A stretch of 53,238 nucleotides of DNA from positions 1-53,238 of the forward strand of contig CABMJK010000030.1 in assembly GCA_902386535.1 (NCBI GenBank). The letters run 5' to 3'. This DNA comes from Candidatus Burarchaeum australiense. GTDB taxonomy: Archaea; Micrarchaeota; Micrarchaeia; Burarchaeales; Burarchaeaceae. The position numbers were made by a program, and so were the translations under genes. A model generated the notes under the pieces. It searched no databases, was not told where the DNA came from, and worked only from the letters and a program-made list of their open reading frames with translations. Of this stretch, positions 45,209 to 50,310 are shown piece by piece. Numbering within the stretch: the stretch's first letter is position 1; the number at the start of each line of letters is the position of its first letter.

Positions 45209-45286
45209 AATAAGAACCTACGGTTCTTATTATCTCCCTTTACAAGTGCCAAGTTGCTACGTGTCTCTCTTGTCCATCCACCTCGT

Positions 45287-47056: not shown

Positions 47057-47896
47057 CTACTTCTTCTCCTCCTTCTTTGCCTCGGGCTTGGCGCCAGCGG
47101 CTGGCTTTGAGCCCATGGTCGGCTTCCCGCCCTTGGCCTCGGCGGCTGGCGCGGTTGCGGCCTTCTCGGCCTCGCCCGGCATCTTTCCGCCCTTTGGCTT
47201 GGCCTCGGCGGCGACTGCGGCTTCCTTGGCGGCCATGAGCGTCTTCCTCATGACTCCGACCGTCATGCCGCTTCTTCCACTCGTCCTCGAGTGCTGGCCC
47301 CGCACCTTTTGGCCGTATAAGTGCCTGTATCCGCGCCAGGTGTTCATGCCCTTGTCGCGTTCTATGTCCTGCCTCATGGAAAATTGGACGTCGGTGCTGA
47401 TCACGTGCCTGTCCTCCCCGGTCTCGGGGTCCTTCTGCCTGTTCAGCAAGTAGTGGGGCACGCCGTATCTTTCCGGGTGCGAAAGAATCTCCTCGACCTT
47501 CTTCATCTGTTCGTCGTTAAGCAGACCTATGACTGTGTCATTCGCAAGCTTCATTTCCTCTATTGCCTTCTCCGCGAGCACGGTGCCGAGCCTGTCGCCG
47601 ATGCCCTTCACGCGCATGACGGCCCTTCGCAAAGGTACGTCTCCGCGCATGTCCTTGCCCGCCAGGCGAACGACGCCGCGAAAGTCTTTTCCGTAATCCT
47701 TGGTCGGCATTATGGGCTTCTGCTCCTGGGGCCTTTTAGACTCGTGCTTGGAATCATGCCTGGGCTGCTGGCCGCCCGCCTCGCCGCCCTTGCCCTGCGG
47801 TTGCTGCCCCGGCTTCGCCTGGGCTGCGCCTGCGTCGGCCTTCCCGTGCTCTTTGTGTGGCGCATTGTGCGCCTTGGATTCTCCTTCGTCCTTCAT
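47057..47896 (-). CDS. rps13: Small ribosomal subunit protein uS13 with long N- and C-terminal extensions
   Basis: 279 residues, nearly twice the usual size (about 150). The core, about residues 68-215, carries FRGVVRLAGKDMRGDVPLRRA, VKGIGDRLG (helix-hairpin-helix) and RGQHSRTSGRSG near its end. The first about 65 residues are His/Gln/Lys-rich and the last 60 are Ala/Lys/Gly-rich, both low complexity and probably disordered. Confidence 0.94.
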   Translation of the reverse strand: MKDEGESKAHNAPHKEHGKADAGAAQAKPGQQPQGKGGEAGGQQPRHDSKHESKRPQEQKPIMPTKDYGKDFRGVVRLAGKDMRGDVPLRRAVMRVKGIGDRLGTVLAEKAIEEMKLANDTVIGLLNDEQMKKVEEILSHPERYGVPHYLLNRQKDPETGEDRHVISTDVQFSMRQDIERDKGMNTWRGYRHLYGQKVRGQHSRTSGRSGMTVGVMRKTLMAAKEAAVAAEAKPKGGKMPGEAEKAATAPAAEAKGGKPTMGSKPAAGAKPEAKKEEKK

Positions 47897-47944
47897 ATCA
47901 AAACCTCATGAAGCATGTCGTGAAATAATGCGCCGGGGATGGGA

Positions 47945-47978
47945 ATCTCACGCCCCTTTCTTCCGAAAGAAAGGGGGT
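47945..47978 (-). other. 34-nt intron in tRNA-Ser T-loop (position 59/60)
   Basis: Central helix TTCA/TGAG with bulges AAA (cut AA^A) and ATT (cut AT^T), then a perfect 10-bp outer hairpin CCCCTTTCTT-tcgg-AAGAAAGGGG. Same site as in tRNA-Pro. Confidence 0.85.
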
Positions 47979-48010
47979 TTTGAACCCATAAGCCCTTGCG
48001 GGCACATGCT

Positions 48011-48062
48011 ATCCGGCACAACATCTAACGTCGTTCAATGAAACTTTTCTGAAAAAGTTTCT
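48011..48062 (-). other. 52-nt canonical 37/38 intron of tRNA-Ser
   Basis: Central helix CTGG/CCGG with bulges AAA and ATA, cuts after the second base of each, which restores loop CTGGAAA. A 9-bp hairpin GAAACTTTT-tcag-AAAAGTTTC lies inside. Confidence 0.85.
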
Positions 48063-48293
48063 TTCCAGGCATGCGCGATACCAGGTTCCGCCACCCCGGC
48101 AGGGTACATTATTGCACGAGTTAAGTATATAAGGCTTTTCGAGGCCCTTTGCAAGATATTTACGACGTGCGCTCGTGCCGCTCCGGGGCCCACGGCAAGC
48201 GAGAGGGCTGAAAACTGCGCCTCATCAGCCATAAGGCGCAAAAGCGTTTTAAATGTGAAAAGGCATATTGAAGAACTATTCTCGGGTGGTCAA

Positions 48294-49319
48294 ATGGGTT
48301 CAAGTGTACGCAGTCGGGGCAGTCAGGATCGCATTTCGGTTGAGAGCTTGGGCGATGGCGGAAACAGGCTCAATGGCCCCGCGTTCAATCACCGTCTAAT
48401 GGAGGTTCAACGGATATTTACGGACAGATACCCGGCCAGGCTCGTAAGGAGTACAAATGGAATTGGCGATGAGCTTCTGAAACCGGCCAGGAAGAGGGAC
48501 TACAGAACTGACTGCCTTGTGGCCGTTCGCAAGGGCGAAACGATGGGCGCGTTATACTATACTATTTTACTGCCCGGAAATGGCGAGAACTTCACTCGCG
48601 CAATCATGCACGTGGAAAACCTCGCACTGAAAAAGAACGTGGAAGGCGAAGGGGTGGCAAGGCTCCTGGTTGACGAGGGATTCGGACGCGCCAGGGAGTA
48701 TGCTGACAAGAATAGGACCAGTCTGCAATTATGCATAGGCGAATTGCCGCTGGAATGGCTGACAAAAAGCACAGAGAACGAGGGAAGGGCGGCGGCCATG
48801 ACGGCATTGTTTGATCCCGCCGTGCCGACAATTTTGCAGAAGGATGGCGGCAAGCGGCAGATAATATATCATGCAAGGGCTAGTGCCGATGGCCCCATGC
48901 CCCTGATTCCGGTCATCACCTTCTTCAATGGCTCTGAAATCGTAAGCATGAGTTCCGAGGTCCGAAACGAGACGCATCTTAGAGTGCTAGATGAAATAGC
49001 CAGAACTGATTGGACGAATATGCCGCTGGTTCCACTCATTGGGAGAGGATATGCAGAACTGGATGCGGGGAATGGATTGCAGGCGCCCCTGCAAGTGGTC
49101 ATAAGAAGTGTTTTCCGACGCAGTTCTGAAAAAGACGTCGACCAGGTGCTTGGGATCCAAGAGGGGAGCCATAATTCTATCAGGTCGTCCAATCCAGTCA
49201 CCAGCACTACAGGGATACCCTTATGCCCTATCGACCTGCTGCCGATTAATGACATAGTTGAGACAGGACCACGTGAACAGCACTCGGGAAGAGAAGCCAG
49301 TAAAAACGGACGTGCGTGA
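48294..49319 (+). CDS. GNAT-like acetyltransferase domain protein
   Basis: A 341-residue protein. The N-terminal half has a GNAT-style fold: MGALYYTILLPG, then IMHVENLALKKNVEGEGVARLLVDEGFGRAREYA, where the ENLALKKNVEGEGVARLL stretch takes the place of the acetyl-CoA loop. The C-terminal half is unrecognised. It is the only rightward gene among the translation cluster, between tRNA-Ser and cbf5. ATG 48294 has GGTGGT 3 nt upstream and a TATA-like box (gttttaaat) 40 nt before; a GTG at 48255 is the alternative. Confidence 0.65.
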   Translation: MGSSVRSRGSQDRISVESLGDGGNRLNGPAFNHRLMEVQRIFTDRYPARLVRSTNGIGDELLKPARKRDYRTDCLVAVRKGETMGALYYTILLPGNGENFTRAIMHVENLALKKNVEGEGVARLLVDEGFGRAREYADKNRTSLQLCIGELPLEWLTKSTENEGRAAAMTALFDPAVPTILQKDGGKRQIIYHARASADGPMPLIPVITFFNGSEIVSMSSEVRNETHLRVLDEIARTDWTNMPLVPLIGRGYAELDAGNGLQAPLQVVIRSVFRRSSEKDVDQVLGIQEGSHNSIRSSNPVTSTTGIPLCPIDLLPINDIVETGPREQHSGREASKNGRA

Positions 49320-49326
49320 AACCGGC

Positions 49327-50310
49327 TCAAACCACGTTTTCAATCTTCTCGTGCTTCTTCCACAGCCTCGGATAGGTGCCGGCCCGCATGACGACGCGCA
49401 CGGTTTTCGCGGCAAGGCCCTTGGTGCCCGCCTTCATTTCCGATTCGGTCATCAGCGCCGTGGCAATGGCAACCAGCTCGCCCTTGAGCGACATCAGCAT
49501 TATCGTGTCGCCCTTCCCCATGCCCTTCTCGAATTTCGCCACGCCGGGAAGCGCGAGCTGGGCGCCGGCGCAAACAGCCTCGATGGCGCCGTCGACGATG
49601 AACATGCGCCGGAAGCGCAGGGCCGACTCTACCGGATAAACGTATTTGCGGAGCAGGGAGTCATCGCCCCGCTCCTTCCAGAGCCACAGCGCGTCGCTCA
49701 GCTCCTGCAGCGTGCAGCACTGCTTCTCGGTGAAGCCCGCAGCGCGCGTGCGCCGGAGCTCAAGCATGTTCGCGCCGCTTCCCGCGCGCTTGCCTATGTC
49801 GTGGCAGAGCTTGCGCACGTAGGTGCCGGCCTCGCACGAGACGCGGAAAAGCGCGTCGCGGCCTTCGAGTTCCAGCAGCTCGAGCGCATAGATGCTCCTC
49901 TCTCGCTCGACACGCTTGACAGCGGAGCGCACGGGCGGCAGCTGCTTTATCCGGCCCACGTATTCCGAGAAAAGCCTGAGCACGAGGCCGCTGTCCACGT
50001 CCGCATGGAAGCGCATGATGCCGATGTATTCCTTGTCGCTCTTGAGCATGAAGGTGAGGGCCTTGGTCGCGTCGTCGAGGGCGACCGGCAGCACGCCGCT
50101 CACCTGCGGGTCGAGCGTGCCCGAGTGGCCGCTCTTCGCGGCTCCGGTCATGCGCTGCACCCAGGCGCCCACCTCGTGGCTGCTCGGGCCGCACGGCTTG
50201 TCGATGGGAATTATGCCGAGCCTTAGGTGCTGCTCGATGGTGCGCTTCGCCGGCTCGATGCCATAGTTAGGGTCCGTCTCGACCGCCATGCGCTCAATTA
50301 GTTCGGCCAT
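49327..50310 (-). CDS. cbf5: tRNA/rRNA pseudouridine synthase Cbf5 (TruB/dyskerin family)
   Basis: Catalytic subunit of archaeal H/ACA RNPs that isomerises uridine in rRNA and tRNA. 327 residues: GIIPIDKPCGPSSHEVGAWV, the active Asp in SGHSGTLDPQVSGVLP (Asp67), then a C-terminal PUA domain (FIVDGAIEAVCAGAQLALPGV ... KGDTIMLMSLKGELVAIATAL). Lies directly after cmk (1 nt apart). Confidence 0.95.
   Translation of the reverse strand: MAELIERMAVETDPNYGIEPAKRTIEQHLRLGIIPIDKPCGPSSHEVGAWVQRMTGAAKSGHSGTLDPQVSGVLPVALDDATKALTFMLKSDKEYIGIMRFHADVDSGLVLRLFSEYVGRIKQLPPVRSAVKRVERERSIYALELLELEGRDALFRVSCEAGTYVRKLCHDIGKRAGSGANMLELRRTRAAGFTEKQCCTLQELSDALWLWKERGDDSLLRKYVYPVESALRFRRMFIVDGAIEAVCAGAQLALPGVAKFEKGMGKGDTIMLMSLKGELVAIATALMTESEMKAGTKGLAAKTVRVVMRAGTYPRLWKKHEKIENVV

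Follow-up and report, generated by a model that had tools for sequence, protein, structure and literature searches.

In the 53,238-nt stretch of Candidatus Burarchaeum australiense DNA analyzed here (the window), a class II tRNA-Ser(GGA) with two interruptions can be read on the minus strand between 48100 and 47931. We are highly confident that this is a functional, single-copy gene with two introns of the bulge-helix-bulge (BHB) type that are spliced by proteins, and that its T-loop intron is part of a genome-wide set of copied introns at position 59/60. The sequences to be removed span 48062-48011 (52 nt, at 37/38) and 47978-47945 (34 nt, at 59/60), the latter interrupting the T-loop, a loop where interruptions are rare. 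Once both are taken out, a complete conserved tRNA is restored, as is expected of archaeal BHB introns: the product is 84 nt long (GCCGGGGTGGCGGAACCTGGTATCGCGCATGCCTGGAAAGCATGTGCCCGCAAGGGCTTATGGGTTCAAATCCCATCCCCGGCG), its spliced junctions read CTGGAAAGCATG and GGGTTCAAATCCCAT, its anticodon loop is CTGGAAA, its T-loop is TTCAAAT, and ARAGORN recognizes it as Ser(gga). An earlier note on this DNA had put forward a two-intron tRNA-Ser(GGA) with these same loops; that reading is correct, with the coordinates, intron lengths and insertion sites exact to the base. The CCA end is not encoded in exon 3. The order TruB/Cbf5, tRNA-Ser(GGA), rpsM recurs in several relatives (Table 1).

Table 1. Features of the tRNA-Ser(GGA) locus in the window and of the dispersed elements discussed in the text. 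Plain numbers are window positions; G000 is the assembly containing the window, G001 that of Candidatus Burarchaeum sp. E19.
Feature	Position	Strand	Remarks
Exon 1, 38 nt, tRNA positions 1-37	48063..48100	-	38/38 identical in Burarchaeum sp. E19
Anticodon GGA	48064-48066	-	inside exon 1
Intron 1, 52 nt, at 37/38	48011..48062	-	two internal hairpins; 48/52 identical in Burarchaeum sp. E19, recognizable in G002
Exon 2, 32 nt, tRNA positions 38-59	47979..48010	-	anticodon 3' stem, long variable arm, T stem, TTCAAA
Intron 2, 34 nt, T-loop 59/60	47945..47978	-	hairpin CCCCUUUCUU-UCGG-AAGAAAGGGG
Exon 3, 14 nt	47931..47944	-	T60, T-stem 3' strand, acceptor 3' strand, discriminator G
Motif 1 central helix, 5' strand CTGG	48065..48068	-	5' bulge AAA 48062-48064; pairs with 48013-48016 in the minimum-energy precursor fold
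Motif 1 central helix, 3' strand CCGG	48013..48016	-	3' bulge ATA 48010-48012
Motif 2 central helix, 5' strand TTCA (54-57)	47981..47984	-	5' bulge AAA 47978-47980; pairs with TGAG
Motif 2 central helix, 3' strand TGAG	47947..47950	-	3' bulge ATT 47944-47946
TATA-box-like TTATATA (by sequence reading)	48126..48132	-	26-32 nt before the 5' end of the mature tRNA
rpsM (ribosomal protein S13), next downstream gene	47057..47896	-	Pfam PF00416, 103.5 bits
TruB/Cbf5 family pseudouridine synthase, upstream	49327..50310	-	Pfam TruB_N, TruB_C_2, PUA, DKCLD
354-aa ORF between the tRNA and TruB/Cbf5 genes	48255..49319	+	antisense to both; no match in Pfam
GGGGGCACG motif copies	G000:C5:53, C15:416, C23:747, C24:39061, C32:20801 and 26912, C39:61801, C47:198, C64:14964		
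Palindrome AACCGTAGGTT	45214-45226 (at tRNA-Leu(GAG)); G000:C14:4290, C39:12705, C50:17432, C51:4472, C58:36518		
Mirror-tract element	L020:1219-1449 (G001), L021:245-464 (G002), L134, L136, L231-L338		mostly tRNA introns
Apparent D-loop introns	L246 around 1500 (G000:C32:27243), L240 around 1500 (G001)		

The earlier note also expected that finders allowing a single intron would pass over this gene, and indeed both ARAGORN and Rfam overlook it in unspliced form. ARAGORN returned no match for the unspliced gene or after removal of intron 1 alone, and a wrong tRNA-Pro after removal of intron 2 alone; Rfam recorded no tRNA at the locus even at E <= 10; and in the whole window tRNA-Leu(GAG) alone was detected by the two programs. 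Of the available tools, tRNAscan-SE 2.0 includes a routine for multi-intron tRNAs (PMC8450103). Scoring of the spliced molecule, which the note had suggested as a check, bears out its reading: against a profile from five naturally intron-free orthologues, the spliced form scores 66.1 bits, well above the unspliced one, which yields fragments of 28.7 and 26.0 bits. With intron 1 alone removed the same profile gives 62.7 bits, and by itself it is no proof of intron 2 because the bases after GGGTTCAAAA resemble a T-stem strand by chance.

At the sequence level, both junctions present a 4-bp central helix and two 3-nt bulges, with the cut falling after the second bulge base. Accordingly, the helix, the bulges and the cut positions of the BHB motifs claimed earlier for both junctions stand, whereas motif 1 has to be described as relaxed rather than as a full strict BHB, because its intron-side helix is the junction of two hairpins and not continuous. 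The CTGG:CCGG helix of motif 1 is present in the computed fold, and in the relative G002 its 3' strand is CTGG, with all four pairs retained through wobble. At motif 2, a fold lacking TTCA:TGAG is preferred by 1.6 kcal/mol (-23.0 vs -21.4); here the comparison of sequences supports the predicted helix through covariation across genes, and not through energy, with the pair appearing as TTCG/CGAA and TCCA/TGGA in other genes. The choice of a cut that restores TTCAAAT, and not TTCAATT, matches the T-loop seen in almost every intron-free orthologue.

The genome encodes both a splicing endonuclease and the RtcB ligase. The one endonuclease gene (386 aa, on contig C42) is a full-length match to the ARMAN-2 epsilon-type enzyme 4fz2 (464 bits), and its aligned residues are identical at the catalytic triad Y236, H251 and K282 as well as at R275, Y160 and K161, positions reported as catalytic or RNA-contacting (PMC12397907). 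Reviews credit endonucleases of the epsilon type with a broad specificity that includes relaxed motifs (PMC6379350). We infer the following path to the mature molecule: the precursor would be transcribed from its own promoter; the epsilon-type endonuclease would cut both introns at the bulges of the splice motifs; and RtcB would ligate the exons into a class II tRNA of 84 nt that decodes UCC and UCU.

The assembly (Candidatus Burarchaeum, Micrarchaeota) comprises 1,196,731 b in 68 contigs, with 57.1% GC, 91% completeness and 5.4% contamination. The published genome of Ca. Burarchaeum australiense LFW-281_7, for which 1.20 Mbp, 57.6% GC, 5.4% redundancy and 18 tRNAs are given (PMC8561730), is probably a version of the same assembly. 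An initial, looser tRNA scan gave 31 candidates, among them one obvious false tRNA (on contig C17).

Could the locus instead be a decaying pseudogene that has kept its inserts, with UCC and UCU decoded by another serine tRNA? What speaks for this is that standard finders see no tRNA there. Several lines of evidence are set against it, and we consider it very improbable. The exons, and thereby the predicted mature tRNA, match those of Candidatus Burarchaeum sp. E19 at 84/84 positions, as against just 70% identity between the S13 proteins of the two. The promoter region is likewise conserved, with 66/70 identical positions in the 70 nt upstream. Nine further tRNA genes in this assembly show the same architecture. 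Finally, a second, intact tRNA-Ser(GGA), which the earlier note had named as grounds for abandoning its reading, was not found in a scan of all 1,196,731 assembled bases (gaps remain in this 91% complete assembly of 68 contigs). The other reading that would deny the second intron its status, namely that the anticodon intron alone is spliced and the T-loop insert is retained as an extended T-arm, draws on the stable hairpin formed by that insert and on the absence of the motif 2 splice helix from the minimum-energy fold. To our mind it is just as hard to credit. In the orthologues the insert ranges from absent to more than 100 nt, and lies at 56/57 or 59/60, with the exon bases restoring TTCRAAT in most of them; the intron-side bases vary with the exon such that four pairs are preserved; and it is established that a retained insert of this kind would cost the tRNA its contacts between the D-loop and T-loop.

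Thus, we favor the reading of a functional gene with two spliced introns, the history of which can be followed in its relatives. Orthologues were located through synteny with rpsM, giving 58 distinct copies: 13 have a T-loop intron at 56/57, 21 at 59/60 and 19 lack it, whereas in the remaining 5 (L043-L046 and L052, classed as other) neither site fits cleanly; reading of the sequences placed L053 with the 56/57 copies and L059 with those that have no T-loop intron. On a tree of the neighboring proteins from the 58 loci, parsimony demands at least 16 state changes and at least 10 changes of presence or absence, counts that are approximate because the tree is from a quick search and the state calls are partly manual. 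Across the Micrarchaeia, on our reading, T-loop introns at this locus have been repeatedly gained, lost or replaced around a conserved mature tRNA, with individual changes assigned as gains only provisionally. The two Burarchaeum species provide the closest comparison: the T-loop intron of E19 is 95 nt long and at 56/57, as against 34 nt at 59/60 here, and the sequences differ. One account, which concerns the history only and is compatible with a functional two-intron gene, is that a single intron of both species shrank and slid from 56/57 to 59/60, with neither loss nor new gain. At the start of both introns stands a hairpin strand of CCC plus pyrimidines (CCCCCTTTCTTT and CCCTTCTTTCTTT), and the 56/57 form is common to E19 and G002; against this, the splice helix differs (GGGT:GCTC vs TTCA:TGAG) as does the length, the remainder cannot be aligned, and polypyrimidine hairpins are common among the introns of this genome. 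On balance, we regard such sliding as possible but doubtful.

The T-loop intron of tRNA-Ser(GGA) is not an isolated case in its genome. A strict scan of the whole assembly, which considered the T-stem, splice helix, acceptor and anticodon stems, recovered 59/60 introns in ten tRNA genes: Ser(GGA), Ser(GCU), Ser(CGA), Leu(UAA), Leu(UAG), Lys(CUU), Lys(UUU), Glu(CUC), one with anticodon CAU and one on contig C7 (loop ATGGCAT). The reversed and the Markov-shuffled genome each gave 0 by the same scan. A 37/38 intron is also present in seven of the ten, and none reaches the Rfam cut-off in a genome-wide search. The splice helix follows the exon, with the combinations TTCA/TGAA, TTCA/TGAG, TTCG/CGAA, TTCG/TGAA and TCCA/TGGA. 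Further, Ser(GCU) and Leu(UAA) have T-loop introns that agree at 46/48 positions, as against 46/82 for the exons, and one of the two differences re-establishes pairing with the Leu exon. The presence of almost the same intron in two unrelated tRNA genes within a genome points to intron copying. There are also two intron families, each of which is found both at 37/38 and at 59/60: one with a CTTTTCTT...AAGAAAAG hairpin, the other with GGGGGCACG...CG(N)CCCCC. For the two introns of tRNA-Ser(GGA) itself, no close copies were found elsewhere in the assembly; hence, copying holds for the intron class and not for these particular members. As to the mechanism, we propose that the 59/60 introns spread among tRNA genes through DNA-level copying.

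The dispersed intron motif GGGGGCACG...CG(N)CCCCC, with a conserved CA bulge, occurs in 9 copies, 7 of them in mapped tRNA genes and 2 in tRNA-like sequence. Separately, the palindrome AACCGTAGGTT precedes many tRNA genes by a few bases, often with AAGGGAG before it, and is also seen within the 37/38 intron of the tRNA at C14:56385.

More novel than the two-intron gene is an element borne mostly by tRNA introns, which combines a hairpin with a mirror tract. A pattern search found 122 copies of its pyrimidine:purine hairpin in ten genomes of the order, as against 0-2 per genome for the pattern read backwards; 85 of the 122 are inside tRNA genes by the strict finder, and more by eye. In the 85 informative copies, i.e., those in which the purine strand of the stem is asymmetric, a second purine tract downstream begins with the A-run of a mirror image in 77 and with that of a direct copy in 0, the remaining 8 fitting neither. 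Compared with within-genome shuffles, the mirror tract attains p <= 5e-5 in three genomes, and a basal stem of at least 3 pairs is present in 99/113 copies vs 64 expected; given the dependence among copies and a search pattern that restricted the stem types, the p-values are guides. The resulting succession of a pyrimidine tract, its complementary purine tract and a mirror-image purine tract (77/85) corresponds to a class II intrastrand triplex motif in its layout; according to PMC4666352, RNA does not support triplexes of the purine motif. In this one-strand order, and in being dispersed in copies, the element resembles BoxC/PIT/TMECO (PMC4666352); in contrast to that G/C-rich, bacterial element, the present one is A-rich, archaeal, mostly located in tRNA introns and equipped with a covarying basal stem. 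It does not correspond to a known Rfam family, the 12 loci searched matching tRNA, partial RNase P and chance hits only. A pseudoknot latch between the hairpin loop and the sequence after the mirror tract was considered and dropped, with at least 3 pairs in 16 copies vs 15.5 shuffled copies (p = 0.49).

The element also turns up in other settings. In genome G004, some copies are apparently outside tRNA genes (L252, L296, L297, L299, L304), lying between tRNA genes or near the starts or ends of other genes. One copy in G006 (L305) is within a region matching archaeal 16S rRNA and, for that reason, is probably an rRNA intron. By eye, members of the family appear as D-loop introns in a tRNA that begins with GGGCTCGTAGTCGAATGG and is taken as tRNA-Val. 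At the Ser(GGA) locus, the element is present in the T-loop intron of the sister Burarchaeum, and the second purine tract is absent from both introns of the gene in the window. As a tentative proposal, to which we give somewhat less than even credence, tRNA introns in this order of Micrarchaeota might arise and move as copies of the hairpin with its mirror tract: copies landing in rRNA or in any tRNA loop that permits a splice motif (D-loop, 37/38, 56/57, 59/60) would be removable, and, at the RNA or DNA level, the mirror tract might dock as a third strand, aiding copying or stability. The T-loop intron of the present tRNA-Ser(GGA) would then be a stripped or replaced version of the element.

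Viewed against known systems, the Ser(GGA) case belongs to a known type, because its sites, multi-intron tRNAs and intron copying have all been described before. Introns at 56/57 and 59/60, like tRNAs with more than one intron, are on record (PMC4090602), an example being the tRNA-Pro(UGG) of Pyrobaculum islandicum with introns at 37/38, 25/26 and 56/57 (PMC4090602). Intron copying among tRNAs is known from the Thermoproteales, though its mechanism is not (PMC4090602, PMC4033280). The likeness to that group extends to canonical and non-canonical introns within one tRNA, BHB-type motifs, the two T-loop sites and similar introns in different tRNAs (Fujishima 2010, cited in PMC4090602). However, the Thermoproteales are Crenarchaeota with a two-subunit endonuclease, whereas the present organism belongs to the Micrarchaeota, encodes an enzyme of the epsilon type and carries intron families with sequences of their own. 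The earlier note went astray in holding that two introns in one tRNA, with one of them in the T-loop, are mainly known from Thermoproteota. Multiple introns, also at 56/57 and 59/60, are listed in reviews for ARMAN-1/2, Nanoarchaeum, Methanopyrus, Korarchaeum and other archaea (PMC4033280, PMC4090602); introns in the T-arm are seen in Caldiarchaeum (PMC3293823); and about 39 of the 58 distinct Micrarchaeia orthologues recovered here have a T-loop intron. ARMAN-1 and ARMAN-2 (Candidatus Micrarchaeum) are also close in kind, sharing the broad lineage, the epsilon2 endonuclease type, the ARMAN-specific loop residues and multi-intron tRNAs (PMC4033280, PMC6379350, PMC12397907), although they are of a different order than Burarchaeum. 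In the open-licence papers searched we found no account, for the ARMAN lineage, of lineage-wide T-loop introns, of intron copying or of the Ser(GGA) gene. Caldiarchaeum subterraneum similarly has multi-intron tRNAs, with introns in the D-, V- and T-arms (PMC3293823), but its lineage is distant, and the three multi-intron tRNAs listed for it do not include tRNA-Ser(GGA).

What the present analysis adds to these cases is the scale of the phenomenon in the Micrarchaeia, together with a set of orthologues that can be compared at one locus. On the practical side, both the number of tRNAs and the estimated completeness of such genomes may come out too low, because at least ten genes with T-loop introns, including the sole tRNA-Ser(GGA), fall below the cut-off of the standard model. 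In evolutionary terms, the way in which archaeal tRNA introns are gained and moved has been stated to be unknown (PMC4090602). The TruB/Cbf5, tRNA-Ser(GGA), rpsM locus offers a natural series of states (no T-loop intron, 56/57, 59/60) against a conserved tRNA body, and such a series of orthologues at a single place makes both processes directly testable. The tRNA-Ser(GGA) gene is thus one case of a wider spread of introns in this group of Micrarchaeota.
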